From Chitinivibrionales bacterium (GTDB taxonomy: Bacteria; Fibrobacterota; Chitinivibrionia; Chitinivibrionales; WJKA01), in the NCBI GenBank assembly GCA_014728295.1, contig WJLW01000015.1, positions 1 through 64,000 on the forward strand: 64,000 nt of DNA. The letters are read 5' to 3'. The position numbers and the translations under genes were made by a program. Of this stretch, positions 43,445 to 62,895 are shown piece by piece (position 1 is the first letter of the stretch; each line of letters opens with the position of its first letter). Under the pieces are notes generated by a model. It saw only the letters and a program-made list of their open reading frames with translations, was not told the DNA's origin and did not search any database.

Positions 43445-44412
43445 GAGACCGAAGCGCCCTCCCCCGGTTGGCAAGCGAGTGCTTGAATGTCCGGGAAGTG
43501 CTCTTCAAGCGCCGTTTCGATACGGTGTACATCATCCTTGAGGCAAATCAGCTTCACCTGCGGACCGGCGTCCATTGTCTCCCAGGCGCCGATGCCGTTG
43601 ATGCGCAGCCGTTCGATAAACTTCAGCAAGCCGATCGTCTGCGGTTCCCAGTAGACGAGCGGCGGTGCGGATGATATCATCGTTCCAAACATACGATAGG
43701 CACTGATCCGAGCAAGATCGCCCAGCTTTTCGATGTCTTTGTTTTCAAGCGCACTGCAGGCCTCTTTGAAGGTCTTTTCTGCATCCAGGACCCAGGATTT
43801 GAAGTAAGGTGAAGTTTTTTTGCTCAGACTCATGCCGAGGCGCGAGGAATACTCTTTTTTTGCATCCTTGACAATACAGACAATTATCCTGAACTCGGGC
43901 CAGAACGACGCGTCGTGAAGCATTTCCGCTGCGTGGCTCCCGGCCCGCAGCAGGGTAAAGCCCCCGAATACCGAGCGCGCGGCAGATCCGGAGCCGATCC
44001 GGGCCAGCGCAGAAATTTCACCGAGCGGATAGTCCGGGTCGGCAAGCTTTGCAATACCACAGGCAAGTGCGGCAAACCCCGACGAGGAACTGGCAATTCC
44101 CGCTCCGGTGGGAAAATCATTTTCGCTCTCGACTTTAAAGGCCAGATTTTCGTCGCAAAGGGCGCCCGCATGCTGAAAAAATTGACTGTAGCGTTCCGGG
44201 GGCTGAAGCTCTCCGTTGACAATGACGACGCTGTTTTTTTTCACCGTCGATATACGTGTCGTAGAAGTCAACCCCGAGAGGGTTATCGCCAGGCTGGAGG
44301 TAGCGGGAATATTATTCTTCGATGATGCCTTTCCCCAATATTTGGTAAGGGCCAGGCTGGGATGCGCACAGGCGATCACCGTTTTGTGCAGCAGCGATTT
44401 CTTCGTACTCAT
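43438..44412 (-). CDS. mvaD: Diphosphomevalonate decarboxylase
   Basis: AHPSLALTKYWGKASSKNNIPATSSLAITLSGLTSTTRI; NDFPTGAGIASSSSGFAALACGIAKL; GSGSAARSVFGGF. Confidence 0.92.
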   Translation of the reverse strand: MSTKKSLLHKTVIACAHPSLALTKYWGKASSKNNIPATSSLAITLSGLTSTTRISTVKKNSVVIVNGELQPPERYSQFFQHAGALCDENLAFKVESENDFPTGAGIASSSSGFAALACGIAKLADPDYPLGEISALARIGSGSAARSVFGGFTLLRAGSHAAEMLHDASFWPEFRIIVCIVKDAKKEYSSRLGMSLSKKTSPYFKSWVLDAEKTFKEACSALENKDIEKLGDLARISAYRMFGTMISSAPPLVYWEPQTIGLLKFIERLRINGIGAWETMDAGPQVKLICLKDDVHRIETALEEHFPDIQALACQPGEGASVSW

Positions 44413-44413
44413 G

Positions 44414-45574
44414 TCACTCCTTTGCCGTGCGATTCTTCTTGTGGTGAAGCGGCATATGTCCCTTTTGAATCCCGGTGCTGATCAGCGCCGCCACTGCGGC
44501 AATATTCTGGGCCAGGCCGACGGATGCGGCAATTCTCGCAAGATGCGGCGATGACGGATTATGCAGCAAGTCGAGGCAGAACTGCGCGGTAGGATGCGTC
44601 CCGGTCGAACCGCCAATAGTCGCAAATGGTAAGGGCATATCCAGGGAGCAGACGAGCGCATCGCCATCGGGTGCAAATACGGACAAGCCGCGGTAGGCCC
44701 CGTCGCGTTGCGCCCAGGCATGTGCCGCGGCCTCCACTGCGCGCGTGTCGTTCAGCGTAGCCAGCGCAAGCGCCGAAATACCGTTCATGATTCCTTTGTT
44801 GTGAGTAACCGCCCGGTCTTTATCGTGGTGCGCAATCATTGATGCAAGCTCAAAGCGGCGCATGCATTCCCCGCCGCTAAACATACCCCGGCACAGCATT
44901 GCCGCCCGGCTTGCGCTCAACCGGCATTCGGCACGCGCACGGCGCTGTCCGGCATTATTTGTCAGTATGCCCATGACCGGATTGATACCGAGAGTATTGC
45001 TGAGTTTGCCGGCAATGCTTTCGGCGCAGGTATTGAGCAGATTGGCGCCCATCGCATCCCGCACGTCAATTGCACAGACAATTTTGAGCATCGGTATTGA
45101 GCTCATCTCCAGGATGTCAAGTGATCTGAATCCGCCGCCGCGCCGGGACATCGAATGCAGCAGCTTGACGAGCCCAAATTCGAGCTCATCCCGCATCGAC
45201 TCGATGTGTTGCCGCATCTGCGCATCGGCATTTTCGACATAGACCGTGCATTCCATTATCGGATCTGTTGCCGATGTTACAAAACCGCCGCCGTGCGCAA
45301 TGATGGTTGCAGCAAACGAAGCAGCGGCGATCACAGAGGGCTCCTCGGTCGCCAGGGGAATGGCATACTCCTTTCCGTCAATCATAAATCCGCAAGCGAC
45401 GCCAAGCGGTATGCCCACAATGCCGACACTGTTTTCAACGAGCGTATCGGCCATATTCAGATAATGCGCACTTGCCGTCGGTGCGTCCAGCAAATCCGGC
45501 TGTCCGACTGAATCCGCAAGCCATTGCCGGCGATCTGAAGGTGTCATCTTTCGAAAATTGCGGGGAAAATTCAT
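44414..45574 (-). CDS. mvaA: Hydroxymethylglutaryl-CoA reductase, class II type
   Basis: MNFPRNFRKMTPSDRRQWL; ENSVGIVGIPLGVACGFMIDGKEYAIPLATEEPSVIAAAS; DVRDAMGANLLNTCAE. Confidence 0.93.
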   Translation of the reverse strand: MNFPRNFRKMTPSDRRQWLADSVGQPDLLDAPTASAHYLNMADTLVENSVGIVGIPLGVACGFMIDGKEYAIPLATEEPSVIAAASFAATIIAHGGGFVTSATDPIMECTVYVENADAQMRQHIESMRDELEFGLVKLLHSMSRRGGGFRSLDILEMSSIPMLKIVCAIDVRDAMGANLLNTCAESIAGKLSNTLGINPVMGILTNNAGQRRARAECRLSASRAAMLCRGMFSGGECMRRFELASMIAHHDKDRAVTHNKGIMNGISALALATLNDTRAVEAAAHAWAQRDGAYRGLSVFAPDGDALVCSLDMPLPFATIGGSTGTHPTAQFCLDLLHNPSSPHLARIAASVGLAQNIAAVAALISTGIQKGHMPLHHKKNRTAKE

Positions 45575-46659
45575 AGAAGCGATCGCCACTCACCATGCGC
45601 AGCATGTTGACGTACAAGAGACAAAAACGAATCCGATAAAATAAGCTTTGCCGCCTGTAACTGCTCGATCGTTTGGCAACCGCAAAGCAGCATTGCAGAC
45701 TTAAAAGAGTGAATAAGCGATTCGGTGAATATGGCTAATCCGTCCATTCCACGCTCGTGCTGCGCCCTGAGAAATGGTAGCGCCATGCCGGCCAGCTCGG
45801 CTCCTAAAGCGAGCGATTTGGCAATATCAACTCCCGTGCGAACCCCGCCCGAGGCCAGTACCGGTAAATGGTCCCGGGGCAAGGCCGCCAGTATCGCCGG
45901 CGTCGGATTGCCCCACAAATCGAAATCCCGGCCGCGCAGCGCAATCCTGTGTTCGTGACACTGTGCTTCGACCTGTATCCAGTTGGTCCCGCCCGACCCG
46001 GCAATATCAACTGCAGCGGCGCCGCATTGGCGCAACCTGGTGACATCCGCCACCCGCATTCCAAAGCCGGTCTCCTTGACAATTACGGGTATGGGCGAAG
46101 ATTCGCACAGCCGCCCGATTGCATCGTAGAGACCGACAAAATTGAGATCGCCGCCCGGCTGAAACATCTCCTGCCCCGCGTTGCAATGAATCACCATCGC
46201 CTGCACTTCAAGACGCTTTACCATTTCGTTGATTACATTATGATCAAGCTCGCGCAATTGCACCGCACCGAGATTGGCCCACACCGGCACGTCAGGCGCA
46301 AGCGGCTTGACATAAAACTGATCGAATACTTCCTCATGGCGGAAGAGCACTCGAATTGAACCAAGTCCGACCGGAATGCCGTATTGCTGCGCGTGCCGGG
46401 CCAGATCACGGTTGATCCGGAAGCCGTTATCGGAGCCACCGGTCATGCAAGAGATGAAAATCGGCAGTGCAATCTTTGCACCCAGAAAGGTCGTCGTTGT
46501 ATCCAGCTTGTCCCAGTCAACTTCGGGCAGTGGATGGTGCAGCAACGAGATATCATTGAACCGGTTCTTTGCCGTCTCGATCGGCTCGGGAGGCTCGAGG
46601 CAGATATCTTTCTGGCGGGATTTGCGCTTGCTGATGGTGCTTGATTCAGGCGCAGTCAT
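45571..46659 (-). CDS. fni: Type 2 isopentenyl-diphosphate delta-isomerase
   Basis: SRQKDICLEPPEPIETAKNRFNDISLLHHPLPEVDWDKLDTTTTFLGAKIALPIFISCMTGGS; VKETGFGM; DIAGSGGTNW. Confidence 0.93.
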   Translation of the reverse strand: MTAPESSTISKRKSRQKDICLEPPEPIETAKNRFNDISLLHHPLPEVDWDKLDTTTTFLGAKIALPIFISCMTGGSDNGFRINRDLARHAQQYGIPVGLGSIRVLFRHEEVFDQFYVKPLAPDVPVWANLGAVQLRELDHNVINEMVKRLEVQAMVIHCNAGQEMFQPGGDLNFVGLYDAIGRLCESSPIPVIVKETGFGMRVADVTRLRQCGAAAVDIAGSGGTNWIQVEAQCHEHRIALRGRDFDLWGNPTPAILAALPRDHLPVLASGGVRTGVDIAKSLALGAELAGMALPFLRAQHERGMDGLAIFTESLIHSFKSAMLLCGCQTIEQLQAAKLILSDSFLSLVRQHAAHGEWRSLL

Positions 46660-47908
46660 ATATGCGGTATCCGTCCTTTCGAACCGATTTCAGGAAGAAC
46701 AGCCTGGAATCCACATCGGGCGCTGCGTGGTGACTGTCGCGGTATACTCCCTTTTTGCTTATCCAATCCTGATATTCATCAAAAGATTGCATCGAATAGC
46801 TTCCGGCGTCAAGCATGTGCCAGTTTTTGATAACGGCGGGTGCTGCAGCAGAGATCCTGGCGCCAAGTACCAGCATGGTTGCCCCCGATCCATAGGCTCC
46901 CAGCACAAGCTTCTTACCAACGATAGCTTCACCGCATTTTGCATAGGCTGCTTTGAGCATGTGGGCCAGGACAAAAAAGAGCGATGCATTGTACAGATTG
47001 CCCACCTTGGCAACCGCGTCTATTCCGTCAAAGAAAAACCGTTCGTCAAGATGGGAATGACATTTTGATTTTTCGATGCCCCCCAGCTTTGAAAGGAGAT
47101 CTTCCATCGCCAGCAACGGCATGCTTCTAAATGGCGTGTGTAAAGCAAAGAAATCGGTACCGGCAATTATTTCCTGTGGATCTTTATCGAGGCGTTGACA
47201 GTAATCTTTGAATGCCTTGATGAATGCCGTGCGATAGCATTGTACCGAATAGGCGCCACGGACTTGTGCAACATCCTGACCCAGTGGGCGAAAGAAGTCA
47301 TCTACGTCATGTGAAAACTGGCCGATATTGGCAATGTCAAGCTCGAGCAGCTTTGGCGAGTGTTCGACCAGCAGTGCTGCAGCACCGGCGCCCTGGGTTA
47401 TTTCGGCCGACGTTTCCTGGGCATACCGCGCAATATCCGAACAGATTACAATGCCCCGGTCGGAAGGATTGTCGGCAGCCATCAGCAAACTGGATACCTG
47501 CAGCAGGCTCAGCATGCCGCCCGCGCAGGCATGTTGAATTTGTGAAGTCGATATCGAGGTTCCGGTATCGAGTCCTACGCCTTTGAGCATGCCCTGCACA
47601 TAAGCGGACAACGGCTTGGAATGATCCACCGTAGTTTCGGTACCAACGGTCAGGTATCTGAATCCATTAGTCTCAATAGCATTCTGCCGGCCGAGAACAC
47701 GCAGCGATGCCTGTGCCGCCATGGTTGCGCTGTCCTCCCAGGGTTGCGGAAAGCGGATGACCTGCTGGCCGGTAAATTTTGCAGCCTTGCGCAACCTTTC
47801 CTCAAGTTGCGGGTCCCGGGCAATACGCTTTTCGATGATCTCAGAAACTTCGATTGCGGAAGCAGGGAGATAGACGGCAATATCACTGATTCCTAAGCTC
47901 ATACTCAT
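46646..47908 (-). CDS. mvaS: Hydroxymethylglutaryl-CoA synthase
   Basis: GISDIAVYLP; TVGTETTVDHSKPLSAYVQGML; SQIQHACAGGMLSLL (catalytic Cys); FALHTPF; thiolase-fold, first gene of mevalonate operon. Confidence 0.9.
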   Translation of the reverse strand: MSMSLGISDIAVYLPASAIEVSEIIEKRIARDPQLEERLRKAAKFTGQQVIRFPQPWEDSATMAAQASLRVLGRQNAIETNGFRYLTVGTETTVDHSKPLSAYVQGMLKGVGLDTGTSISTSQIQHACAGGMLSLLQVSSLLMAADNPSDRGIVICSDIARYAQETSAEITQGAGAAALLVEHSPKLLELDIANIGQFSHDVDDFFRPLGQDVAQVRGAYSVQCYRTAFIKAFKDYCQRLDKDPQEIIAGTDFFALHTPFRSMPLLAMEDLLSKLGGIEKSKCHSHLDERFFFDGIDAVAKVGNLYNASLFFVLAHMLKAAYAKCGEAIVGKKLVLGAYGSGATMLVLGARISAAAPAVIKNWHMLDAGSYSMQSFDEYQDWISKKGVYRDSHHAAPDVDSRLFFLKSVRKDGYRIYDCA

Positions 47909-48471
47909 CCAAGGTTAAATTATGCACACAACTGAACTCAAAATATACCGGAAATTAATTAAATCAATATAGTTCAAATTAGCAATTGACGGGCCATGAT
48001 CGCATGCGACTGTTTTGCGGCATTACGCCAAATGAAAATGGCCTGCAAACTGCACCTTGCCATTTTGACACATAGCCGGTACTTTTTTGGGCATTTGCAA
48101 ATAGCTGCATAGGTTAAAATAACTATTTCCTGAACAGCATTGTCTTTTCGAAGCGAACGAGGGCAACTATATATTGTATCGATGGGTGCCATATATACAA
48201 ATTGTGCTCCTTTATCTCGAGGACTTCGGGAAGCCATCGACCTGCACGCACGTGGCAACCGACACTGCCTTTTTTACTTTGTAAGCCGGAAGCAATCATG
48301 CGATTCATGAGCATTGTTAACATAAGTGGTTCTTTTATAAGTAGTTATTCACGCCTATCGACCGGCTCTTTTTTTACAATTATTTATGGTAAAACAGCCC
48401 AAAATGTGCTATTATAATGTATATTGCAGGGAGAAATCGACGACTGCGAACCTACATTGACCGTGATTATG

Positions 48472-49317
48472 ACATCTTCAATCAGAGAATATCTCGACTA
48501 TCGGGCATTTTTGCGGGAAGCCTATAGAAAGCGCCACACAGCACGTCGTTCGTTCAATTATAATTATATCATCGAAAAACTGGGACTTAAATCCCCCGGC
48601 CATATCACCTCGATATTCAATGGTGATCGCAACCTGCCCGAACGGCTTATCGAGCCGGTAGCTAAGCTATTCAAACTGAATCGCCGGGACACCGAATATT
48701 TTAAAAGTCTCGTTAAATACAATCAATCCGCAAAGCACAAAGACAAAGACACCTACTTCAGCAAACTTGTCGCCTTTCATCGCAAAGAAAAAAAGCTCAT
48801 CGACCCGCGCATCTACCGCTACTTTTCGCACTGGTATACCCCGGTGATACGCGAACTGACGGCATTGATACCGGTTACCGATGCAAACGCCAAAGAATGC
48901 GCCAGACACATCAGGCCGAAAATCTCACCAACGGAATTCCGGCAGACTCTGGAGCTGCTGGTAGACCTCAAGCTGATCAGAAAAAATGAAGATTCATCAT
49001 ACGAACGAATAGATTCCGTTATTTCGACGGGCGATAGCTGGCGATCGCTTACCATTCATAAGTACCAGCGCGCGGCTATGGACCTGGCAAAGGATGCACT
49101 GGATACCATTTCAAAGCAAGAGCGTGACATTTCCACGTTGACAATCAGCATATCTGGACATCAGTTTCCGATCATCAGCGAAAAGCTTAAAAAGGTGCGC
49201 AAGGAAATCCTGGAAATGGCGTCGGCTGATGATACTGCAGACAAAATTTTTCAGTGCAACATCCAGCTTTTTCCGGTATCGTATACTCTTGGGGAAGAGA
49301 AAAATGATACGAAGTAA
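48472..49317 (+). CDS. TIGR02147-family protein (putative regulator)
   Basis: SIREYLDYRAFLREAYRKRHTARRSFNYNYIIEKLGLKSPGHITSIFNGDRNLPERLIEPVAKLFKLNRRDTEYFKSLVKYNQ... matches the family N-terminus. Confidence 0.85.
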   Translation, partial: TSSIREYLDYRAFLREAYRKRHTARRSFNYNYIIEKLGLKSPGHITSIFNGDRNLPERLIEPVAKLFKLNRRDTEYFKSLVKYNQSAKHKDKDTYFSKLVAFHRKEKKLIDPRIYRYFSHWYTPVIRELTALIPVTDANAKECARHIRPKISPTEFRQTLELLVDLKLIRKNEDSSYERIDSVISTGDSWRSLTIHKYQRAAMDLAKDALDTISKQERDISTLTISISGHQFPIISEKLKKVRKEILEMASADDTADKIFQCNIQLFPVSYTLGEEKNDTK

Positions 49318-50572
49318 TCAAACGTGCTCTTTGCTTTTGCTTGTTGCCGCGCTGCTGGTTGGCTGCTCGTCAAACAACAGTGTTTCATCATCCGGAGGCG
49401 GCACCGAAACCACCAATGGTATTATTGTCTCTGCATTCGTGGAAGATGCTGACGGCGAAGCGGCGGCAGGCGCCGATGTTCGCGCGCGCCGGGTATATTT
49501 TCTGGCGGACACCGGTGCAACAGTATGCAACGATTCGACCTGCATCGACGCCGTCACCAACAGTCAGGGCGGCTTTTCAATCACTATCCCCGAATCAACA
49601 TCGTATCGCGTCACGGTAACCAGCGGCGATTCGGCACTCTTTACTGATACGATACCGGCGTCGCTCAATACGTCGGTCTATGCACTGGATACACTGGCAC
49701 TCGAACCGGCCGTCACCTTGTCAGGCCTCATCTCTGCGCAAAGCTCCTGGCAGGATTTCGATGCGTATGTGCGCGTGTTCGGGTTCGAGGGCGTGGCCAA
49801 GGCAGCACCCGACAACACCTATCTTCTCGGCCCGCTGCCCGATGCAATTGTCAACCTGCATCTTCTGGGAGTTACCTCGTCAAATCATTTTGCGGTTCGC
49901 TACACTCGCAGTTTAACCGGTCCGGGAGTGATACAGCTCGATACGTTGCGGCTTACCGATATCACTTCCGGCCTGGATGCCTACTGGAATTTTGATGACG
50001 CCGGCGGCTCAACCGCCAATGACGTTACCGGCAACGGCTTTGATGGTGAAATCTTCGGCGCATCCTTTGCCGGCGCGATGCATGGGACGGGAATGCGTTT
50101 TGCGAATAGATCCGACCAGGTAGCTATTGTCAAGAAGCTTACCCCCTCTCGCCGGGGCACCCTTGCTTTGTGGATGCGACCCGGCGATCTCGATTCGTCG
50201 AAAATCTATCGGATCATATCATCCGACACCAGTTCATTTGAAATATCGCTTCGCGAAGGCAACATCACCAGCGAATTATTTGCCGTCGAGCAGGATTTTC
50301 TCAAAGACACCACGATCACGCTCACGCCGTCCACCTGGTATCACGTTGCCTGCACCTGGGATCATTTCACCAGGCAATCACGCATTTACCTTGACGGCAA
50401 TCCAGTGGCGCAGGACACCGTAGCAGACGATAACCCGGGCGCCATAGCGTTGACTTTCGGCCGCAGTGAGCTGCACGGAACCGCCTTCAAAGGCATGCTT
50501 GACGATGTGCGTATTTACCGAAGGGTACTAACCGAAGAGCAGGTGGCGACACTGGCGCATGGGGGATATTGA
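49304..50572 (+). CDS. LamG/concanavalin-like-domain lipoprotein
   Basis: ATG 49304 overlaps upstream stop; lipobox LLVGC; LDAYWNFDDAGGSTANDVTGNGFDGEIFGA...WYHVACTWDHFTRQSRIYLDGNPV...MLDDVRIYRRVLTEEQV (LamG). Confidence 0.85.
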   Translation: MIRSNQTCSLLLLVAALLVGCSSNNSVSSSGGGTETTNGIIVSAFVEDADGEAAAGADVRARRVYFLADTGATVCNDSTCIDAVTNSQGGFSITIPESTSYRVTVTSGDSALFTDTIPASLNTSVYALDTLALEPAVTLSGLISAQSSWQDFDAYVRVFGFEGVAKAAPDNTYLLGPLPDAIVNLHLLGVTSSNHFAVRYTRSLTGPGVIQLDTLRLTDITSGLDAYWNFDDAGGSTANDVTGNGFDGEIFGASFAGAMHGTGMRFANRSDQVAIVKKLTPSRRGTLALWMRPGDLDSSKIYRIISSDTSSFEISLREGNITSELFAVEQDFLKDTTITLTPSTWYHVACTWDHFTRQSRIYLDGNPVAQDTVADDNPGAIALTFGRSELHGTAFKGMLDDVRIYRRVLTEEQVATLAHGGY

Positions 50573-50814: not shown

Positions 50815-53196
50815 ATGAAGCTTCGGAACACCCTGCCTTGCCTTATTCTCGGTATACTGCTCGGCTGCGCACCATACAAACAAATCAAGCCTAAACCGGA
50901 GATTACTCCCGAAGAGAAGGGGTACCTGCAAATCGCAAAGGGTGATAAAAATTTCAAACTGAAAAAAGGCAAACAATACTACATCGCCTTTCCCGGCCCG
51001 AAGGCAGACAACTTCTACCTCGTTCTCAGCCTGCTCGACAAAAAAAGCTACAACAGCTTTCTGCTTGACAGTTACGAAAAGAAAAAGATGGGCGCCAAAA
51101 TTGAGGATGAAAGCCCGCATCCCGACACGGTCAGTGCGTATCCGCTCGAAAAAAGCAATCCGATGTATTACTGGATGATCGACGATGTCATGCAGGACAT
51201 CGAGCTTCGGATGAGATATCGCTACGTTCCCAAATGGCGTTACAAATTTGAAACTCACCATGCTTCCTACAAAGAGACATTCGAAAAAAACAAAACCGAT
51301 CGAACTATTTACAACTCTATCGGCGTCAATTTCACCTTTCAGGGATTCAACTTTGCGAAAAACATGCAGGAGGTATCGCAGCGAACCAATGTGCTCGAAG
51401 GGGTGCTGCAAGAGCTGCTTGACATCGAGAGCATCTTCCCCGATCACATCAAAAACTCTTCAGACAAGGCCTATCTCGATTTCAAAAATCTCAAATCCGG
51501 CCTGGAAGAAGAAATTGCGTTTCAGAAACTCTACTCCCAGGTGCTTGACTTCTTTAACAACGACCTGAAAACACGCGACAATACCGGCGTTTTTCTAAAT
51601 GTCACGAAAGGCTTTATCGCCTATTTCGGCAACAAGGATGATCTTGCCCAAAACGTACTCAAAGAAAGCAAGGAACGTCTTGAGGTGCGCCTGCGTGAAA
51701 TCGGACCGTATTATGACAAAAAAATGGGCGACAAACCCGACGGCAAGCCGCTCGATCCCCAGGAGTTTCACCTTGACGGGCTCAAAAATGCCGATGTGCT
51801 CTATAACATAGCGGGAATTGCAAAACCCGACATCTTTAAAAAAGCCTCAACATTTGTCTTTGCCTATCAGGAAAAAAGCACCGGCGGCAAAGCGGTATTT
51901 GAAGAGCTTCAGAGCATACAAAAGTCAATTACCGGCATGAAGGGATTTCCGGATGACGATTTCTTCAAAAAAATTCACCAGAAAGCATCCGCCCTCAGAA
52001 AAAAGATGCCGACACCACTCAGTAAGACACACGGCAAGTACTTGAATTATCCATGTTCGCAGGTGCTCAACAAAAACATTATCCGTCTCAACGAAGAGCT
52101 TACCAAACTGGTTGCCGAATTTGACAAAGCCGCCGCCCTGGTTCCCGGCCTGAATAGCCTGAAGGCCCGCAAGGACTATCGCGAGATGCTGAAGCTCATT
52201 AAGCAGAACTCGGAAATGGAATTTTTGCTTGACGTATACAGTGACCTCGATTCCCTGTCGGTAGCGGAACAGGAACGCCGGATCAAAGCCGCGCTGGAGG
52301 AATACCGCTGGCGGGAAGCAGAGGCCGGCCTGAGGACATTGCACAATGACATACAATTCATCAATCCGGAATCAGTCAGACTCATAAAGCACAAAGCGGT
52401 GCACGAGCTCGAAGACACCTTATACATCACCGTCGACCGAGTTACCCGCTATCGCGTCGACAAATTTCTGGAAGAAAATGTTGACACTCTTGAAAACATC
52501 GACTCACTCTACACCGACTCCGTGTTTTTGCCCTGCTATGATATCTCGTTTTCAACCGGCACCAAAAACCAGCTTTACCGGCGCAAAGAGGAACTGGTTG
52601 CGCATCTGGCAAAAATGAAAGAGAATGAGTTTCCCCGCAAGGCAATCAAGCTGCTGTGGGACGGGTTCCTCAAGCGTCCAAGCGACAACGGCGTTCTCAA
52701 GGCACGCGCCATTGTCGCACATGGCAAGCATTACGAGGGCGAGGACCAGAAAACTCAGCGCATCATCCGCGAGGTCGACCCGTGGACGTCAAAGTGGATC
52801 GTCAAACCCAAGGAATATCGCCGGCTGTTTGCCCTGCCGATTACCGACAATCGCCGCGGCGCCAATACCTACGTATTCCGTATTAATATACGCGTCAAAA
52901 CCGAAGCAAAATTTCCAGTGTACGATGTCAATATCAAATTACCCGAAGATATTGCCCGCAATGCCGGATCGACGCAGTGGTATGAAAAGATGACGCTGAA
53001 CAAGAAACTGCTGAAAAACGAAGGTCGCTTCAGCATCACCGCGCCAACAGCAGCAAATAATTACGAATGCCAGATCAGCCCGATGCGTGTTGAAAAGGAC
53101 AAAAACAACTATCTCGAAGTCCGTTTCAAACACAATTCGTTCAGAGTTCACAATATCAGCGTCATGGTGCAAAAACCGATTATCAAGAAGAACTGA
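50815..53196 (+). CDS. Large lipoprotein of unknown function (first gene of divergent ABC operon)
   Basis: ATG 50815 with MKLRNTLPCLILGILLGCAPYK lipobox; ~790 aa, charged/helical; no domain recognised. Confidence 0.7.
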   Translation: MKLRNTLPCLILGILLGCAPYKQIKPKPEITPEEKGYLQIAKGDKNFKLKKGKQYYIAFPGPKADNFYLVLSLLDKKSYNSFLLDSYEKKKMGAKIEDESPHPDTVSAYPLEKSNPMYYWMIDDVMQDIELRMRYRYVPKWRYKFETHHASYKETFEKNKTDRTIYNSIGVNFTFQGFNFAKNMQEVSQRTNVLEGVLQELLDIESIFPDHIKNSSDKAYLDFKNLKSGLEEEIAFQKLYSQVLDFFNNDLKTRDNTGVFLNVTKGFIAYFGNKDDLAQNVLKESKERLEVRLREIGPYYDKKMGDKPDGKPLDPQEFHLDGLKNADVLYNIAGIAKPDIFKKASTFVFAYQEKSTGGKAVFEELQSIQKSITGMKGFPDDDFFKKIHQKASALRKKMPTPLSKTHGKYLNYPCSQVLNKNIIRLNEELTKLVAEFDKAAALVPGLNSLKARKDYREMLKLIKQNSEMEFLLDVYSDLDSLSVAEQERRIKAALEEYRWREAEAGLRTLHNDIQFINPESVRLIKHKAVHELEDTLYITVDRVTRYRVDKFLEENVDTLENIDSLYTDSVFLPCYDISFSTGTKNQLYRRKEELVAHLAKMKENEFPRKAIKLLWDGFLKRPSDNGVLKARAIVAHGKHYEGEDQKTQRIIREVDPWTSKWIVKPKEYRRLFALPITDNRRGANTYVFRINIRVKTEAKFPVYDVNIKLPEDIARNAGSTQWYEKMTLNKKLLKNEGRFSITAPTAANNYECQISPMRVEKDKNNYLEVRFKHNSFRVHNISVMVQKPIIKKN

Positions 53197-53293
53197 ACCC
53201 ATCCCGCCCAGCGGAAGCACAGCGTTCGCCGGGAATACAACGGAAATGAAAGCTGAGCGGAATGCGTTCATTTAAACGACTGGAGGATTATTT

Positions 53294-55033
53294 ATGAAGA
53301 AAGCCCTGATCATAATTCTGAGTGCGGTACTACTCGGCGGCATCGGTGGTGGATTGTACTATTTCTTTTTCTGGAAAAATCTCTCCGGTCAAATTGTCGT
53401 CCCCTATATCGCCCACCAGAAACCCCGTATCGATCCCCATATCCCCGCATCCGTTCCGCTGGCAGACAAAATGGATGAAGTCGTGTTCGACGGCTTGTTC
53501 AATGTCTCTGCGAATCCCAGCGGCATAACCTATGAAGATGGTCTGGGTGAGCTGATGGGCTTGACGGAAGACAACGTTGTATCCATCAGGCTCAAGCCGG
53601 CCAGAAAATGGCACTCGAGCTACGGCATTACCATGGAGAAAGACAAGATCACCCGGATTGCCGAGAACCAGGCTGTTGGGTTTACCGCCAAAGATCTCAA
53701 CTTTACCCTGCGCCGCATCCAGCAACTCGGCAGCCGCTCGCCGGATTATATCCTCGTTAACCAGGCTGTCGAAGGATTTACTTTCAGCGGCCCTGATGAA
53801 AATGACGAAATCCAGTTCAAGTTCCGCCAGGACCGCATCTGGACCGAAAGCGATATCAAGGAAGTCCTTTCATTCAAGATTCTGCCGGCAACATCCGATC
53901 TCAATGCGCCGATCTACAACGAAGGCACCGGTCCGTATATGCGGGCGGGGGAGTATGAGGATGTGATCTACTATTACAAGAATCTCGACGGCACGGCCAA
54001 CATTGCCAGTCTGGTGCTCAAGCCGTATATCGACAACAGCACCTTTACCACAGAAATCAAGAATAAAAATATCAATTCTCTCCTGAGCACGCCGTTCGGC
54101 GCCGTCTCCCCTATTCTTGCAGACTCAACCAAATTCTTTCACAAGTCAAATGTCAGCACGACCTTTTTTGCCGTGCTTTACAATTTCCAACGACTGAATC
54201 TACAGCAGCGGATTGAACTGCGCAAGCTGCTCAATCATGAGCGCATCATGGAACGCTTTTTCAAAATAGGCACCGAACAGCAACGGCACATTTCCGATTA
54301 CCGGGGTAATCGTGACAATTATGAAGACTACCTCAACTACAGCATGTTTCCGACATCTTCCTACTACGTTGATGAAGAGATTGTCATACCGAATCGAGGT
54401 TACGATTATCCCGACCTGACCGTACTGCCGGATACCGTTCGCATCCAGACCTGCGTCAATTACGGCTTTCGGGAAGAGCTGCAGGAGCTGGTCACCATCA
54501 TGAACGATCCGGGATTGTTCAAAGGCAAAGTCAAAGTCGAAGCCGTACAGAATGAGGTGATTCGTCAGGGAAATTACGACGCCGTCCTGATAGCCGTCAG
54601 CGGTTATCGCAGCAATTTTCTATTTGACTTGTACGACCTCTTTCTGCGAGAACCGGATTTTGCCGTCAAAAAAATCAATCTGGTTACAGGCACGAACCGG
54701 GATGGCCAGCGCGTCGTCATGGATGAAAGCTTTACCGCCGCAAAAAACTTCCTGCGCATCGACCTCGCCGAATCTGATGAAAGATACGAAAACAAAAAGA
54801 AACTGCTCGACTATATCTACGGATTCATGTCAACACACGAAGTAGGTGACAAGCAGGCTTACGCGCAATTCATCGACGAACTCGACCAGGAAATAGCTCT
54901 GGGAAGCTGGCTGTTTTCCCTTCCGTCACTTGCCTATTTCAGAACACAATTTGAGGAACACTCGATCAGTCTCTATGGGGTAGCATCGCAATTGTCTACT
55001 GTTGAGCAATGGAAAGAAAAGCCGAGTCTGTAA
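53294..55033 (+). CDS. Membrane-anchored SBP_bac_5-like (peptide-type) substrate-binding protein
   Basis: N-terminal TM ALIIILSAVLLGGIGGGLYYFFF; DGLFNVSANPSGITYEDGLGELMG...VVSIRLKPARKWHSSYG...FTAKDLNFTLRRI...YNEGTGPYMRAGEY pattern of family-5 SBPs; GGAGG RBS upstream. Confidence 0.72.
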   Translation: MKKALIIILSAVLLGGIGGGLYYFFFWKNLSGQIVVPYIAHQKPRIDPHIPASVPLADKMDEVVFDGLFNVSANPSGITYEDGLGELMGLTEDNVVSIRLKPARKWHSSYGITMEKDKITRIAENQAVGFTAKDLNFTLRRIQQLGSRSPDYILVNQAVEGFTFSGPDENDEIQFKFRQDRIWTESDIKEVLSFKILPATSDLNAPIYNEGTGPYMRAGEYEDVIYYYKNLDGTANIASLVLKPYIDNSTFTTEIKNKNINSLLSTPFGAVSPILADSTKFFHKSNVSTTFFAVLYNFQRLNLQQRIELRKLLNHERIMERFFKIGTEQQRHISDYRGNRDNYEDYLNYSMFPTSSYYVDEEIVIPNRGYDYPDLTVLPDTVRIQTCVNYGFREELQELVTIMNDPGLFKGKVKVEAVQNEVIRQGNYDAVLIAVSGYRSNFLFDLYDLFLREPDFAVKKINLVTGTNRDGQRVVMDESFTAAKNFLRIDLAESDERYENKKKLLDYIYGFMSTHEVGDKQAYAQFIDELDQEIALGSWLFSLPSLAYFRTQFEEHSISLYGVASQLSTVEQWKEKPSL

Positions 55034-55175
55034 GCCGGAAACCTCGTTGCCCGCCCGAAATCAGCACCACTGTCCCACTTGCCGCCCCGAGCGCCGACAT
55101 TCGGTTCGGGCAGGACAACAAAGACAAACAAAATCGAAGCCCCGGGAAATATTTATCGATACGACATTACAGCAT

Positions 55176-56042
55176 ATGCCGAAACTCTTTATTGCCTTCA
55201 CGATTATTGTCAGCGCCTTTACAGCCCGGAGCGCCGACTATATCATTTTCGAAGACTACACCGAATTGCGCATACGTGACAGATACCAGCAGGAGCTATC
55301 CAACGCCCGGTACCGGGCAATCAGGGCATACGCTCCAGTTGAAATCATCGAGCAAACTGCGCTCCTGGGTGACCAGCTCACATACGCGCTCAAAGGCCGC
55401 ATCGATGGACAGACCGCGTATATCATAACTGGTAAGAATGGCACATTTACCGGCTATCCGGATGACAAATATGTGAGGACATTCAACAATTGCCGCGAAG
55501 TACACGACACCTTCGAAATAAGCTCTTCCCGCAGTTTCGTGCTGTACCCCGAATATCCGCAACAGGGCGGCGCAATCCCGGTCGATGCCGGAGCGCAGGT
55601 GCAGAGAATCTTCAAATTTGGGAATCGCTATTTCGGCAAGCTGCTTACCGGTGATAAGCAGTACGGCTGGATCACCATTCGCAACGCTTCCGGTTGGCAC
55701 AAAAAAAAAGGCAACGATTCAGGTCCGTCAGTCGAATTCACGGATGACATAGTTCAAACTATCCGCCATCGGTTGACCGAGATCAATGCAACATACGTCG
55801 ACTATTTCAGCTTTTTTAACGACCTGACCGGCAAGCACAAATCGTCACCACAGTGGCAACTGGCACAGCGGGAAAACCGCCTAACCTGTTCCCTGCACGC
55901 GCCGCAGAGCATATTGCGCCAACTGAAAGAAAGCTCCACGTATGTCGCGCAGGAAATCGAAAACCTCTTTATCGGCAAGCCGTTTACCGTTACCAGAGAC
56001 GGCCAAACGATCACAATCAGCGCCGTGCACCAAAACCAATGA
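55176..56042 (+). CDS. Exported protein of unknown function
   Basis: Internal ATG 55176 MPKLFIAFTIIVSAFTARS signal peptide; ends overlapping next ATG (ATGA). Confidence 0.65.
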   Translation: MPKLFIAFTIIVSAFTARSADYIIFEDYTELRIRDRYQQELSNARYRAIRAYAPVEIIEQTALLGDQLTYALKGRIDGQTAYIITGKNGTFTGYPDDKYVRTFNNCREVHDTFEISSSRSFVLYPEYPQQGGAIPVDAGAQVQRIFKFGNRYFGKLLTGDKQYGWITIRNASGWHKKKGNDSGPSVEFTDDIVQTIRHRLTEINATYVDYFSFFNDLTGKHKSSPQWQLAQRENRLTCSLHAPQSILRQLKESSTYVAQEIENLFIGKPFTVTRDGQTITISAVHQNQ

Positions 56043-57094
56043 AATCCAGACTCCTCGAACACGTCCTCAGCACCGTTATCGTAACCGTATTGCTCATTGG
56101 CGTGCTGGTTATATCCGGCAACCGGCGCGAGCAGCAAAAGGCGGAAGCACTGGCGTCAATAAAGCCGTATATCAATTCCCCCGAAATCGATCTGAATTCT
56201 CCATTTGGCAAGGCGCTGTTCAAAGAAACGCTTAACATTTACTTTGCGGGGCAGGCCGACTCGGCCCAGGCCGTGTACAATGCCGTCATGGCGTACAAAG
56301 ATCGTCAGTTCGGTGCCATGATCCAAAGTGCGCACGTTCAGGACGAACTCGATTCGGCCAAACTCAAAGAGCTTGCCGGCATGTATGTGAAATTCGTTCT
56401 GGTTTACCTGCTTGTCATGGCGCTAGCCTATTACGGCGTGCAAACACTTGGGACCTGGCAATTCGTGCGCCGCAAGACACGTGCAGAAAAGAAAGGGCAA
56501 AGCAGTCCTTTCACAACCATTGCCGGGCGATTATCGAGTGTTGCCGCGTCGTTTATTCTCTTCTCCCCCGCCTATGTTATCGCCTACTCGATCAGAACCG
56601 AGTTCCGCACCGACACGACGATCTTCCTCGTTCTCCTGGCACTGATCTCCAACGGACTGCTCATCACCTACGCTCACAAATTTTACAGCTTTCTGAAATC
56701 CGAAAGTCGCAAGGGGTATGTGTATACCGCACTGGTCAAAAATCTCGCCGGTACGTATAATCCGACTTCCAAAGACGGCATCAGACTTTCAGCAATTCTC
56801 AGGCCCGCTAAAAAATTCGATGGTCACGTACTCGGGCACATTTATGAAAATGCGCGCCACCAGTATTTAAGCACGATAAAAGAACAAGCATCGTTTCTCA
56901 TTACCGGCCTGATCATCATCGAAATGGCATTGAATATCCATGGTCACCTGAGCTACGAAATGCTCCGGCAGATTTTGTATAAAAATTACGACATCGTCAT
57001 CGCCATCATCCTCGGCATTTTCTATACTGTCAAGGCAACGGAAATCTTTGCGGATGCGATGATACACCGTGAGCTACGAAAATATGCCAATTGA
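56039..57094 (+). CDS. Divergent DppB-like ABC permease
   Basis: N-terminal TM, large extracytoplasmic loop, then SPAYVIAYSIRTEFR...SRKGYVYTALVKNL...NARHQYLSTIKEQASFLITGLIIIEMALNIHGHLSYEMLRQILYKNYDIVIAIILGIFYTVKATEIFADAM resembling DppB C-terminal region. Confidence 0.62.
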   Translation: MKSRLLEHVLSTVIVTVLLIGVLVISGNRREQQKAEALASIKPYINSPEIDLNSPFGKALFKETLNIYFAGQADSAQAVYNAVMAYKDRQFGAMIQSAHVQDELDSAKLKELAGMYVKFVLVYLLVMALAYYGVQTLGTWQFVRRKTRAEKKGQSSPFTTIAGRLSSVAASFILFSPAYVIAYSIRTEFRTDTTIFLVLLALISNGLLITYAHKFYSFLKSESRKGYVYTALVKNLAGTYNPTSKDGIRLSAILRPAKKFDGHVLGHIYENARHQYLSTIKEQASFLITGLIIIEMALNIHGHLSYEMLRQILYKNYDIVIAIILGIFYTVKATEIFADAMIHRELRKYAN

Positions 57095-57117
57095 AAAGAT
57101 GGAACGCGGAAATTCGA

Positions 57118-57954
57118 ATGAGTAAAGACATTAGATGGACCGTTATCTGGCTTGCAGGCATTCTGGTTGCCGGCGTGTGGAATATCGCCTTTCTGAACAA
57201 ACCGGCCCTGAAGCTTGTTGTGTCGGGATTTTTCAATACCATTATTATCGCGTTGCTTGTTTCGCTCTTCTCGCTGTCGCTTGCCTGGCTGGTTACCAAT
57301 CTCAGCAACGTTTTCGAAATGAAAGGCTTTCATCCGGGCAACCTCGCACTCTCATTCATGCTCAACCTGATCAAATCCATCCCCCAGATCGTTGGTGTGC
57401 TCGTCGGGTATATCCTCGTAGCATTTGCCGTCGGTGAAGGTCACTTCGGCTCCACATTTACGGTTTTCATCATCCTGGCGCTTATCATGAGCCTGTTCAT
57501 TTTCATCGAACTTGTCGAATTGATGAAGGACCGCATCGCGCACTTCAAGCGCCTCGACTTCTACAATGCTATGAAGGTATGCGGCATTGCCGAGAATCGT
57601 ATTATCAATTTCGACATTCTGCTGAAAAACAGCCGCTTGCATATCTTCAATAAACTGATCTCAATTTTCGGTATGGCTGTCTTTCTGCAGTGCAGCGTCG
57701 ACTTCATCATCTCGGTTGGACTCTCATCCGGCGTCAGCTCGGTAAACCTGCCCAATACGCTGGGAAGTCTGCTGGCAAAGATCGACAGCAAACAGGATAT
57801 TCTCGCAATCGGCCATACGCTGACCAATCCCGGCTATATCGGCAACCTCTTCTTCGGCCACCTGCAGGGAATTACCGTCGCGTTCCTGATTGTATTTACG
57901 CTCATGTCAATTTATCATATTTCCGACGGATATGCGGAGCGGCACCGGTTATGA
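57118..57954 (+). CDS. Divergent DppC-like ABC permease
   Basis: MSKDIRWTVIWLAGILVAGVW...FFNTIIIALLVSLFSLSLAWLVTNL...RLDFYNAMKVCGIAENRIINFDILLKNSRLHIFNKLISIFG (EAA-like loop); ATGA overlap with ATPase. Confidence 0.7.
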   Translation: MSKDIRWTVIWLAGILVAGVWNIAFLNKPALKLVVSGFFNTIIIALLVSLFSLSLAWLVTNLSNVFEMKGFHPGNLALSFMLNLIKSIPQIVGVLVGYILVAFAVGEGHFGSTFTVFIILALIMSLFIFIELVELMKDRIAHFKRLDFYNAMKVCGIAENRIINFDILLKNSRLHIFNKLISIFGMAVFLQCSVDFIISVGLSSGVSSVNLPNTLGSLLAKIDSKQDILAIGHTLTNPGYIGNLFFGHLQGITVAFLIVFTLMSIYHISDGYAERHRL

Positions 57955-59459
57955 ATGATAAGGTATTTGCGCTGTCCATACAATCCGGCAAACGCGTTAT
58001 TGTTGCGACCGATCAATATCGCGTTGTGCCCAATGCCGTCACCTTCCTGTTTGGCGAATCCGGGATCGGCAAATCGCTGCTGACCCGCACGGTTTACGGT
58101 CTGACCGATACCGACGAGCTTGACACAACGGTCAATAATGCCGCGTATCGAAGCCACCTGAGCTCACCCTGGACCAGACAGGTGATGCACAACAGCTTTT
58201 TTGTCTTCCAGGAACCGTCCTCGCACCTCAATCCCCTCATCAAACTCAACGATCAATTGCACGAAGGCAGCCTGGCGCAGGATACAAATGAAAAGCATAT
58301 TCTCGACACGCTCTGGGAACATGCATCCGACAAGACCATCAGCGCCATCCTCGAACTGTATCCCAAACCATATCGACCCAGCGGCGGGGAAAAACAGCGC
58401 ATTCTGCTTGCGATGGCCTTTAAAAAGATCAATGTATTCCAGCAGTCGACCAATCCGGAGGTTCCATCTTTTTTTGTCTTTGACGAGCCTACCGGCAGCC
58501 TCGACAACAACTATCGCAACGTATTTCTCAAACTTCTGTTTGACAAGTTTCGTCAACGTCCATTCACCGTCATGCTTATAACGCACGATTACTCGATTAT
58601 CAGCGAAATTGAGCAGCATCATGCCGACCTCACCAGTGCAATTCACTACAAAGAATTGTATCGTCGCGCCGGGAGCAACGTTGCGGTGCGTTCGTTCAAA
58701 GCAAAAGAATATACGACCTGGTTGCAGCAGTCAAGCGGCATGAGCGCCGGCTTTTCTTCGCAGAACATCGTTCTCAACATGCAGCAAAGCTTTCGCGTAT
58801 TTGAGCGGTCGCTGCATCTTTTTGCCGATCCCGCGCATCGCCGGCCGGCCGATCTTTGCATCCGTAAAGGTGAAATGGTCTACCTCAAAGCGCCCAGCGG
58901 CGTCGGGAAAACTACACTGGCAAAAATTGTCATGGGCCTGCTCAAAGCACAACACAGCTCACTTTCCCTGTCCGGTTTGTCTCTTAATCAGGATACGCCG
59001 GTTGCATTCTGGCACAAACACATCTGGGGCAAAAAGGCGGGAATGATTTTCCAGCATGCCGACGAGGCGCTTAATCTGCAGGCAACGGTCAAGGAGACTT
59101 TCAAGGGCCTTCCCACACGTTTCAAAATGAGCGACAAGGCAATCGCCGCGCACCTGAAGCAACTCTTTGACATAAGCATTACCCCGGAGTTTCTCAACAA
59201 AAAAGTCGCCTGGCTCAGTGGCGGCCAGAAACAACGCCTCAACATCCTGCGCACACTGGCACTGGATACCGACCTCATCATCCTCGACGAACCGCTCAAC
59301 GGGCTCGATTTCGCAAGCATCCGGAAAGTCCTCTCCCTGCTCGAGCAGAAACGCAGATCAGGCAAAGCTCTCCTCATGATCTCGCATAACGAAGAAATCT
59401 TCGACACAATTGTCGGGCCGGAGCATGTTGTCTATCTAAGAGAAGGCGCAGACGCGTAG
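57951..59459 (+). CDS. Tandem-domain ABC ATPase (Opp/Dpp DF-like fused)
   Basis: Walker A FGESGIGKSL and APSGVGKTTL; signatures PSGGEKQRILLAMAF and LSGGQKQRLNILRTLAL; Walker B FFVFDEPTGSLD and LIILDEPLNGLD. Confidence 0.9.
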   Translation: MNDKVFALSIQSGKRVIVATDQYRVVPNAVTFLFGESGIGKSLLTRTVYGLTDTDELDTTVNNAAYRSHLSSPWTRQVMHNSFFVFQEPSSHLNPLIKLNDQLHEGSLAQDTNEKHILDTLWEHASDKTISAILELYPKPYRPSGGEKQRILLAMAFKKINVFQQSTNPEVPSFFVFDEPTGSLDNNYRNVFLKLLFDKFRQRPFTVMLITHDYSIISEIEQHHADLTSAIHYKELYRRAGSNVAVRSFKAKEYTTWLQQSSGMSAGFSSQNIVLNMQQSFRVFERSLHLFADPAHRRPADLCIRKGEMVYLKAPSGVGKTTLAKIVMGLLKAQHSSLSLSGLSLNQDTPVAFWHKHIWGKKAGMIFQHADEALNLQATVKETFKGLPTRFKMSDKAIAAHLKQLFDISITPEFLNKKVAWLSGGQKQRLNILRTLALDTDLIILDEPLNGLDFASIRKVLSLLEQKRRSGKALLMISHNEEIFDTIVGPEHVVYLREGADA

Positions 59460-59569: not shown

Positions 59570-60409
59570 ATGGCCGATCACGGTGCGTTGTCTGATTCTA
59601 TTATCGGTATTATCGACCGACTCCCGCCCATGCCGGAGACAATTCGGCATTTGCGCCGGATGGCGGCTAATCCGAATATTACCTTCAAAGCCTTGCTGCC
59701 GGTGCTGAAAAAAGATCCCGCAATCTGCGCCGATCTCCTGCACATGGCCAACTCCGCCTATTACGGCATCAATCATCCTGTCGAAACGCTCGACGAAGCC
59801 GTGCGCTACTTCGGCGTACAACAGCTCATCAACTACATCTCGATCTCTTTTTCCGATAAAGCAATCAGAGAATTCTTCACAAATATCAGCAACCTCTCCG
59901 ATTACTTCACGCATTCACGCCGGATATCCGTCGCGTCAACCGAGCTAGCCAAAGCGGCAAACCTCGGCAAACACGAGCAGGATGTCGTCGCTATCGCCGG
60001 GTTACTGCATGATCTCGGACGCCTTATCATCATCATGGCCTCCAACAAGCGCATCTTCAAAACAACTAATGCACAATCACAACAGGAAATTGAAGCAATT
60101 GTCAACGATGAAAAGGAGGTGCTCGGCATCGACCATTGCATCATCGGCAAAAAGATTTGTGCAAAGTGGAAATTCACCGAACTGCTGCAAACTGCGGTTG
60201 AAAAGCACCACACGCCGCTCAATGGTGGCGTTTGCAAACAGGCCGCATTTATTTTGCTGGGACATTTCATCTCAATGAAAACGCTCTCGGATGAATTGCT
60301 GCTGTCGGTATTCGATGAAAGCATTCTGGATCAGCTCGGATTGAATGGGGATATGCTCATTGCCGCGCATCGGTCGTTTGATGAAGTTTGGGCTGAAGTG
60401 AGCGGGTAA
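59570..60409 (+). CDS. HDOD-domain protein
   Basis: LPPMPETIRHLRRMAANPNITFKALLPVLKKDPAICADLLHMANSAYYGINHPVETLDEAVRYFGVQQL...AGLLHDLGRLIIIM. Confidence 0.9.
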   Translation: MADHGALSDSIIGIIDRLPPMPETIRHLRRMAANPNITFKALLPVLKKDPAICADLLHMANSAYYGINHPVETLDEAVRYFGVQQLINYISISFSDKAIREFFTNISNLSDYFTHSRRISVASTELAKAANLGKHEQDVVAIAGLLHDLGRLIIIMASNKRIFKTTNAQSQQEIEAIVNDEKEVLGIDHCIIGKKICAKWKFTELLQTAVEKHHTPLNGGVCKQAAFILLGHFISMKTLSDELLLSVFDESILDQLGLNGDMLIAAHRSFDEVWAEVSG

Positions 60410-60867: not shown

Positions 60868-62895
60868 ATGAGACATACCTTTTGTATGGCAAGTATAGTA
60901 CTGTTAATGTACGCATCAGCCCACGCTGAACTCGTCGCTGATTTCTCCGACCAGGGAATCGAATCGCTCAAATATGCAGGCGTTGAGCTCATCTCGCCCC
61001 TCACCAATCCCGGCAATTTTGCCATCCCTCATGCAGCGGTCACCCTGGAGAAGATGGATCTGAGCGGAACGTATCGATCATATGATTTTACGTCGACAAG
61101 CGCTGAGGCGCCTTCCATCTCGAGTTATAAGGCAGCATCGAAAACCTGCATTCGCGCGTATTCCTGGGGAACTGCCAGAGTCGCCTATGATGTGAAAAGT
61201 GATCGCCTTGACATTACCGCCGTGCTGAAAAACTCCACGCAACAGACTGTCGCAAATTTCAATATTATCCTGCTTCACTTTGTACACCGTGACGGCTGGA
61301 AGGATGTCGGCGTTGCATCAACGCTGGACCGGTTCGGGTACAATGGGTTTACTGATGCTACGCTCAAAGCGCTCGTCGCCTCACCTTCGTTCGATACGCC
61401 GTTGAAACTGCAGCTCAAACCATGCGGCGGCAGTTGCGGACGTCCGCTCATTGTTACCGGCGGGATCACGGCTCCGGATACCAGCCAACGCACGATCCAT
61501 CCGCACGGGATGCCGCGCATCGCTGCGGGTGACAGTCTCACACTGAAAATCAGCATTCGCTTCGATAATCCGGCAACATCCGAGCTCGACATGCTCGATG
61601 ACTTGATTGATCCGTATCGGCAATCCCTGTCGCCACTGCATGTCTGGCCCGATCGTCGACCTATCGGGATGATCTTCCATTCGAGCGGCTATTCCGGCCA
61701 CGTTTCCGCAACCAATCCGCGCGGCTATTTCAATGATCCCAAAACAGATATAATTTCCGATTCGGGCAAGCAGGCATTTTACAAGCGCATGCTCGAAGCG
61801 GCGGACAGGGAAATTGCCAACTTGCAGAAAATGGGCAGCCAGGGCATGATTCTGTGGGACATCGAAGGATCTGAACACGCAGCCATCACGTATGTCGGCG
61901 ATCCGCGCATGACCGTGCATCTGGCGCCGGAAATGGATGAGATTGCAGATCAGTACTTCAAAAAATATACCGATGCCGGTTTACGTGCAGGAGTCTGCCT
62001 GCGCCCGACGCGGGTTTACTGGCATTCCGGCAAGGACAAGTGGCAGCATAATACCGGCAGCGATGGCGGTCACGAGGACGGCATCACCCAACATGCGGTC
62101 TACCAGCACCTCAAAGCCGGCGATCTGCCGTGGTGGGACTTCTTCCCTACTGTTGAACGGATGACCGACAAGATCCAGTACTGCATCGACCGCTGGGGAT
62201 GCTCGCTTTTTTACATCGATACGCCGGGCGAATGGCGCCGGGTCGGTGTGAATCAGGAGTTTACTTATGTGCAGCTCCAAACCTACCTCTATCGCGAACT
62301 GGCACACCGATTTCCCGATGTCTTTATCATTCCCGAGTTTACCCATGAATCGGATATGGCCTATGTCGGCGACTACATGGAACTGGACCTGGGCGGCAAG
62401 GGAACCGGTGCTACACGCCGCCGCCTCTTTCCTGATGCGATAAGCGTGATCAACGTATCGAACGGTAATTTCAGCGCACACCGCGACCGGCTGTACCGGG
62501 CGATCGAAGAAGGAGACATTATCATGCATCACGGCTGGTGGTGGTCGGCACGCAATCAGGAAGTGCTGGAGCTTTATCAGCAAGCAATAGGCAACGGGGT
62601 GGAGCTGATACGCGGCAGTCTGCCGTCCTTTAAGAAAAACTGGCCGGATTCACCCGCACAAAAAGATTTCCCTGCGCACTTCTCATTTGTCCCGGGAACA
62701 TTGGTCAACAGCACCGGCATGCCCGGACAGTTCAGCATTTTCGACCTGACGGGGCGATGCGTGTATGCCCGGTATGTCAAGCCAGGTGTCATACGCGTGC
62801 CCGTGCCCTCTTCTCTGCACGATGCGATGTACCTTGTCCGCTTCACCGGTTCGGAACGTACATGTGCCGGACGCATGATGCTGGTTGACAAATAA
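60868..62895 (+). CDS. Secreted putative glycoside hydrolase (TIM-barrel-like, family unassigned) with C-terminal sorting-like tail
   Basis: Signal peptide MRHTFCMASIVLLMYASAHA; MILWDIEGSEHA, GLRAGVCLRPTRVYW, CSLFYIDTPGEW, FPDVFIIPEFTHESDMAYVGDYMELDLGG, IIMHHGWWW; C-term FSIFDLTGRCVYARYVKPG...YLVRFTGSERTCAGRMMLVDK. Confidence 0.65.
   Translation: MRHTFCMASIVLLMYASAHAELVADFSDQGIESLKYAGVELISPLTNPGNFAIPHAAVTLEKMDLSGTYRSYDFTSTSAEAPSISSYKAASKTCIRAYSWGTARVAYDVKSDRLDITAVLKNSTQQTVANFNIILLHFVHRDGWKDVGVASTLDRFGYNGFTDATLKALVASPSFDTPLKLQLKPCGGSCGRPLIVTGGITAPDTSQRTIHPHGMPRIAAGDSLTLKISIRFDNPATSELDMLDDLIDPYRQSLSPLHVWPDRRPIGMIFHSSGYSGHVSATNPRGYFNDPKTDIISDSGKQAFYKRMLEAADREIANLQKMGSQGMILWDIEGSEHAAITYVGDPRMTVHLAPEMDEIADQYFKKYTDAGLRAGVCLRPTRVYWHSGKDKWQHNTGSDGGHEDGITQHAVYQHLKAGDLPWWDFFPTVERMTDKIQYCIDRWGCSLFYIDTPGEWRRVGVNQEFTYVQLQTYLYRELAHRFPDVFIIPEFTHESDMAYVGDYMELDLGGKGTGATRRRLFPDAISVINVSNGNFSAHRDRLYRAIEEGDIIMHHGWWWSARNQEVLELYQQAIGNGVELIRGSLPSFKKNWPDSPAQKDFPAHFSFVPGTLVNSTGMPGQFSIFDLTGRCVYARYVKPGVIRVPVPSSLHDAMYLVRFTGSERTCAGRMMLVDK

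Follow-up and report, generated by a model that had tools for sequence, protein, structure and literature searches.

A conserved six-gene unit containing Opp/Dpp-type transport proteins and two extracytoplasmic proteins of no assigned family

The window analyzed here is a 64,000-nucleotide stretch that forms the start of a 189-kb contig (WJLW01000015.1) in the 5.3-Mb bin of a Chitinivibrionales bacterium (Fibrobacterota). Between positions 50815 and 59459 the window contains six open reading frames, genes A through F, which lie consecutively on the + strand (Table 1), exactly as a preliminary description of this DNA had placed them. Genes B, D, E and F encode a binding protein, two permeases and a fused ATPase of the ATP-binding cassette (ABC) type, and genes A and C encode extracytoplasmic proteins. 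The six genes constitute a real, conserved unit that is found in the Fibrobacterota and in other phyla of the Fibrobacteres–Chlorobi–Bacteroidetes (FCB) group. The transport engine in this unit is already known; the A–F set, as a set, is apparently undescribed.

Table 1. Genes A–F and neighboring features of the window
Feature	Positions	Strand	Product
Gene A	50815-53196	+	793 residues; lipoprotein, lipobox LLGC, Cys18; matches no known family
Gene B	53294-55033	+	579 residues; family-5 solute-binding protein, predicted N-terminal transmembrane anchor, without lipobox
Gene C	55176-56042	+	288 residues; exported
Gene D	56039-57094	+	351 residues; DppB-type permease
Gene E	57118-57954	+	278 residues from ATG; BPD_transp_1-type permease, DppC position
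Gene F	57951-59459	+	502 residues; fused double ABC ATPase
Mevalonate pathway cluster	41541-47908	-	Near-complete pathway
Upstream genes	48424-50572		TIGR02147 family protein and secreted laminin-G-like domain protein
Downstream gene	59570-60409		HDOD-domain protein
Downstream gene	60868-62895		Secreted protein, 675 residues

Gene order and distribution of the A–F unit

ATGA overlaps are present at the C/D and E/F junctions, and gaps of ~100 bases and ~140 bases separate A from B and B from C, respectively. The preliminary description had reported several such overlaps; the overlaps themselves stand, and their number is two. Translation of E could alternatively begin at a TTG codon at 57091, which overlaps the stop of D. 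Scans for promoters and terminators, in which the signal was near the shuffled background, identified no terminator-like sites on the + strand within A–F.

The order A-B-C-D-E-F is kept across the Fibrobacterota bins that have sufficiently long contigs, and the relatives of the present bin in the named collection are Fibrobacterota (Chitinivibrionales/Chitinispirillaceae and kin). This order is also observed in loci from Calditrichota, Ignavibacteria, other Bacteroidota, Latescibacterota and Zixibacteria. Recurrence of all six genes in this order in further Fibrobacterota, as well as elsewhere in the FCB group, goes beyond chance, in keeping with the initial proposal of one dedicated gene unit. 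Variations on this arrangement include additional sequence at the B–C and D–E junctions of two related bins (L026 and L032), and the placement of A-B and D-E-F on separate contigs in one bin (G030).

A broader scan that used one genome per species identified 74 B loci in Calditrichota, Ignavibacteria/Melioribacter, other Bacteroidota, Latescibacterota, Zixibacteria and a few bins with odd names. Gene A is located directly upstream of B in 71 of the 74 loci, and the contigs of the remaining three end close to B. Genes C through F follow A-B in order at most loci and are found elsewhere in some (L060, L062, L071, L076, L080, L107). The constant adjacency of A and B, even as C–F can sit elsewhere, suggests that A and B are the closest partners in the unit. 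Furthermore, E is encoded in all nine of the genomes tested that carry B loci. Within the Fibrobacterota, A and B are present in exactly the same 19 of 61 genomes, and E is found in 18 of these 19 as well as in G035; the mismatches between A/B and E involve G014 (79% complete) and G035 (82% complete), each consisting of more than 600 contigs. According to the preliminary description, a lack of co-occurrence of the two unknown proteins with the ABC genes in relatives would refute its proposal; the survey of 61 genomes and 74 loci revealed no such lack. The tree of B contains nine label changes for eight phyla, compared to a shuffled mean of 32.5, and the Fibrobacterota (including Raymondbacteria) form one fully supported set. 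The B tree largely follows the phyla and, as far as the naming of metagenome-assembled genomes can be relied on, agrees with mainly vertical inheritance accompanied by losses.

The genes surrounding A–F are varied. No recurrent linked neighbor family was identified in the flanking proteins scanned (the best accounts for 4 of 107, in mixed orientation), and no metabolic genes were found to travel with A–F among the scanned neighbors. In the window, the TIGR02147 family protein and the laminin-G-like domain protein upstream of A lie outside the conserved unit. The HDOD-domain protein is encoded just downstream of F, and HDOD relatives are also located near the A–F system in four Calditrichota loci (L068, L071, L076, L080). 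In a Zixibacteria bin (L101:9306-11111), no stop codon separates E from a second protein, which bears a signal peptide and resembles, as judged by eye, outer-membrane barrels such as PorQ/PorV. The secreted 675-residue protein has no Pfam family and gives a weak hint of a type IX secretion sorting tail (E-value 0.13). A link between A–F and type IX secretion was considered and set aside, since SprA_N is found in 59 of the 61 Fibrobacterota genomes and does not discriminate. The mevalonate cluster contains two GHMP kinases, diphosphomevalonate decarboxylase, 3-hydroxy-3-methylglutaryl-coenzyme A (HMG-CoA) reductase, HMG-CoA synthase and a flavin mononucleotide-dependent enzyme resembling type 2 isopentenyl diphosphate isomerase. 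A link to an archaeal-type lipid pathway was likewise rejected, as geranylgeranylglyceryl phosphate synthase (PF01884) is present in 56 of the 61 Fibrobacterota genomes and does not discriminate; this prevalence may be compared with the archaeal-type lipid genes of FCB bacteria (PMC7852524).

Properties of the encoded proteins

Single-sequence Pfam and NCBIfam scans of this genome matched only F, leaving A through E unrecognized. The assignment of B, D and E is based on hhalign comparisons of family alignments with small reference sets of Opp-type proteins from E. coli and from the genome itself, in which most unrelated decoys scored below 1% and the highest reached 2.4%. B matches the family-5 solute-binding protein set at 97.5% (E-value 5e-12), compared to ≤0.7% for decoys and controls, and PF00496 is detected in 25 of 39 B homologues (best 8.2e-10). 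D matches the DppB set at 95%, with scores of 0.95% for the DppC set and 0.07% for MetI. E aligns over its full length with the DppC set at 90% and scores 13% with the DppB set, an assignment to the DppC branch that is not exclusive. PF00528 is detected in 13 of 46 D homologues and 11 of 45 E homologues (best 9.3e-8). Taken together with F, these results bear out the original description of the transport parts as divergent members of the Opp/Dpp type. No likeness of D or E to LolC, FtsX or MlaE was detected by hhalign (≤0.4%), and searches of PDB sequences with the A, B, D and E profiles gave no meaningful match.

The F protein contains two stretches that match PF00005 (ABC_tran; 2.9e-35), and the YejF model covers residues 8–499. 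Both ATPase motif sets anticipated for a tandem ATPase are present, with the second Walker A reading APSGVGKT (fitting the pattern [AG]x4GK[ST]), and 38 of 43 family members retain both sets intact. The two halves of F are fused in every member seen. In the tree of nucleotide-binding domains the second half of F groups, at moderate support (93/81), with OppF-type sequences, but the branches leading to the two halves are very long. The C-terminal four-Cys ([4Fe-4S]) motif is absent from F; 41 of the 43 members have 0–3 Cys, and there is no conserved Cys column among the Fibrobacterota members. The E. coli proteins YejF, GsiA and NikD also lack this motif.

B has a single N-terminal hydrophobic segment and no lipobox in 65 of 66 homologues, with a lipobox-like motif in the other one. 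This sequence pattern agrees with the previously suggested membrane-anchored, non-lipidated binding protein, and B is probably a receptor tethered to the membrane. Median pairwise identities across the 31 loci that contain all six genes are 55% for B, 49% for E, 46% for F, 40% for D, 37% for A and 22% for C, making B the best-conserved and C the fastest-evolving subunit. In DppA, R383 and D436 hold both ends of the dipeptide (PMC12136057). In the B–DppA profile alignment, which has low local confidence here, R383 aligns with a gap and D436 with a stretch containing an invariant Tyr438 and mostly Arg439. Non-peptide members of the Opp/Dpp/Nik family may likewise lack residues of this type. D is distinguished by an insertion of 19–26 residues within the EAA coupling loop in 46 of 46 family members, which is absent from DppB, and by a periplasmic loop that is kept after the first transmembrane segment, where DppB has the scoop motif.

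A and C were initially described as uncharacterized extracytoplasmic proteins, and they indeed match no family consistently, even when homologues are used for searching. A strict pattern finds a clear lipobox of A in 47 of 64 members, and a Cys occupies this position in the remaining 17 too. In the 47 members scored, this Cys is followed by Ala, Ser, Gly or Thr, and never by Asp. In E. coli, a residue other than Asp after the Cys leads to sorting to the outer membrane. The AlphaFold2 model of A (predicted local distance difference test score, pLDDT, 91; predicted template modeling score, pTM, 0.57) consists of a β-sandwich (residues 22–139), a body of long helices (140–655) of up to 39 residues each, and a second β-sandwich (660–793) that ends in a near-invariant QKPIIKKN tail. 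The C-terminal sandwich and this tail are the most conserved parts of A (mean majority fractions of 0.68 and 0.79, respectively), compared to 0.41–0.43 for the central helices. Flagellar-scaffold and vesicle-tether (CATCHR-like) proteins were considered as relatives of A and rejected, as the template modeling (TM) scores of these fold matches are ≤0.2.

The AlphaFold2 model of C (pLDDT 91, pTM 0.67) has an all-β N-terminal half and a C-terminal domain of the alpha-beta-beta-alpha-beta-beta type. Its top fold matches are SH3-type cell-wall proteins, such as YrvJ, and the TagH extracellular domain, and on the basis of this model C probably carries tandem SH3-like domains. SH3_3 is detected in one of 47 C homologues, at 0.01. 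Matches of the C profile to influenza HA2 (E-value 0.011 and worse) are taken as chance alignments.

Proposed function of the A–F complex

The interpretation that we tentatively favor, at somewhat under an even chance, is that A–F encode one trans-envelope import or sensing complex that is built on an Opp/Dpp-type engine and is dedicated to one fixed ligand. B would act as the receptor, held at the inner membrane next to the channel made up of D and E, and F would power this channel. A would be a long lipoprotein, probably anchored in the outer membrane, whose conserved far end may dock onto the inner-membrane parts, most likely B. C would be periplasmic and may connect the other parts with peptidoglycan or with A. 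A single invariant ligand, more likely an envelope-derived or signal-like molecule than a varied set of nutrients, would be imported, or would be sensed through its import.

An importer engine equipped with a binding protein favors transport into the cell, or sensing that is gated by a ligand. B is better conserved than the permeases, opposite to the YejA-YejB-YejE control (58% for the receptor versus 68% and 63% for the permeases, the latter from two genomes), which points to a fixed ligand or a fixed protein partner. Combined with the probable tether, the large lipoprotein and the invariable position of A next to B, this conservation is suggestive of a fixed assembly that has one ligand and probably bridges the membranes. 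In the fullest version of this proposal, which is possible but doubtful, a rod-shaped lipoprotein of the outer membrane would be physically joined to a binding protein that is tethered at the inner membrane and works with the importer engine, and the whole would move or sense one conserved envelope or signal ligand. Should the bridge reading be true, A–F would be, to our knowledge, the first Opp-type system to act as an outer-to-inner membrane bridge.

Several observations weigh against a dedicated trans-envelope complex. The presence of the unit is patchy (19–20 of 61 Fibrobacterota genomes, with strong E matches in 27 of 40 Calditrichota genomes and in 11 of 396 genomes of the Bacteroidota, the phylum of Melioribacteraceae bin G061), which speaks against an indispensable envelope role. 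The outer-membrane location of A would follow from the E. coli sorting rule, which may not hold in FCB phyla. The best PDB fold match of A is weak (9hmf chain K; E-value 2.3e-3, TM 0.12, 784 alignment columns), and the top fold matches of C are weak as well (E-values 3.5e-3 to 1.8e-2, low TM scores). Against single sequences, E scores 74% with MetI, its best match, and 20% with the best DppC-type protein, so its placement on the DppC branch of the importer permeases is tentative. The permease values of the Yej control have the narrow base given above. The preliminary description had suggested a role possibly in export, the envelope or signaling rather than in nutrient uptake; the sequence relatives are importers.

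The main rival is that A–F form an ordinary, though divergent, FCB importer of oligopeptides or related nutrients, in which A and C act as accessory stabilizers. We regard this as unlikely. All four transport proteins do belong with peptide/nickel-type importers, no other function has been linked to the A–F locus, and a scattered distribution among larger genomes is what nutrient transporters typically show. The arguments against nutrient uptake are indirect: B is probably tethered and is the best-conserved rather than a variable subunit, and the peptide-end residues R383 and D436 of DppA (PMC12136057) are unmatched in B in a part of the profile alignment that is weak. No consistent peptidase or catabolic gene occurs among the neighbors.

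A–F could also be a functional analogue of FtsEX or LolCDE, a non-transporting ABC machine that spends ATP on moving A and C in the periplasm and in this way controls the assembly of the envelope or the enzymes of the cell wall. The large elongated lipoprotein, its probable SH3-like partner and the fixed gene set are consistent with this, as is the resemblance of C to SH3-type cell-wall domains (YrvJ, TagH extracellular domain). D and E, however, are unlike FtsX, LolC and MlaE (the hhalign scores above) and resemble importer permeases encoded alongside a binding protein, making such a machine decidedly unlikely. Still less probable is an exporter in which the importer fold runs outward and A passes the substrate on to the outer membrane or the surface. 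A would extend as far as the outer membrane, and SapBCDF, which is related to the A–F transporter family, is annotated in its E. coli record as a putrescine exporter, but a family-5 binding protein that export does not need is retained and strongly conserved, and no outer-membrane channel gene is linked among the scanned neighbors.

Whichever function applies, A and C represent two families (~790 and ~290 residues) without any assigned domain, and several FCB phyla have preserved the linkage of six genes, five of which Pfam and NCBIfam leave unrecognized in this genome. A true bridge model would mean that an importer fold has been turned into a trans-envelope device of fixed build, with the well-conserved receptor B as a direct route to finding the ligand.

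Comparison with known systems

No paper describing the A–F set was found in the open-access literature, and family searches returned no described system; the possibility of an already described transporter, raised in the preliminary description, therefore found no support in these sources. The closest PDB fold match of A is the periplasmic scaffold of the Campylobacter flagellar motor (9hmf chain K), and the TM score and E-value given above show no shared fold. A flagellar function was rejected, as FliG is present in 38 of 61 genomes, many of which lack A–F, and is missing from one 96%-complete genome that carries A–F.

The methionine importer MetNIQ is similar in that E resembles MetI in the single-sequence comparison, and the E. 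coli record calls MetQ membrane-anchored. B is unlike MetQ, however, and A–F has two different permeases in place of the MetI pair.

YejABEF, an importer related to microcin C and antimicrobial peptides, shares a compact operon and one fused double ATPase with A–F. Yej has no counterparts of A or C, and its receptor is free in the periplasm. A separate Yej-type operon is present in the same genome as A–F (L132, G000:C31:6000-20000). Close YejA orthologues (57–70%) are found in families f8 and f11, which lack A–F, and otherwise only in G000 and G009. Substitution of A–F by Yej was considered and rejected, as Yej occurs in two families without A–F but also in two A–F genomes, giving no clean exclusion.

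The E. coli Dpp and Opp systems (DppABCDF and OppABCDF) share with A–F a family-5 binding protein, a B-type and, probably, a C-type permease with EAA loops, and two ATPase sites. In contrast to Dpp and Opp, the A–F receptor has a probable transmembrane anchor, is the best-conserved subunit and, in a weak part of the profile alignment, does not match the residues that hold the peptide termini, and the A–F ATPases are fused and lack the four-Cys motif of DppD/F and OppD/F. To this common engine, A–F adds the coupling-loop insertion in D and two extra extracytoplasmic subunits.

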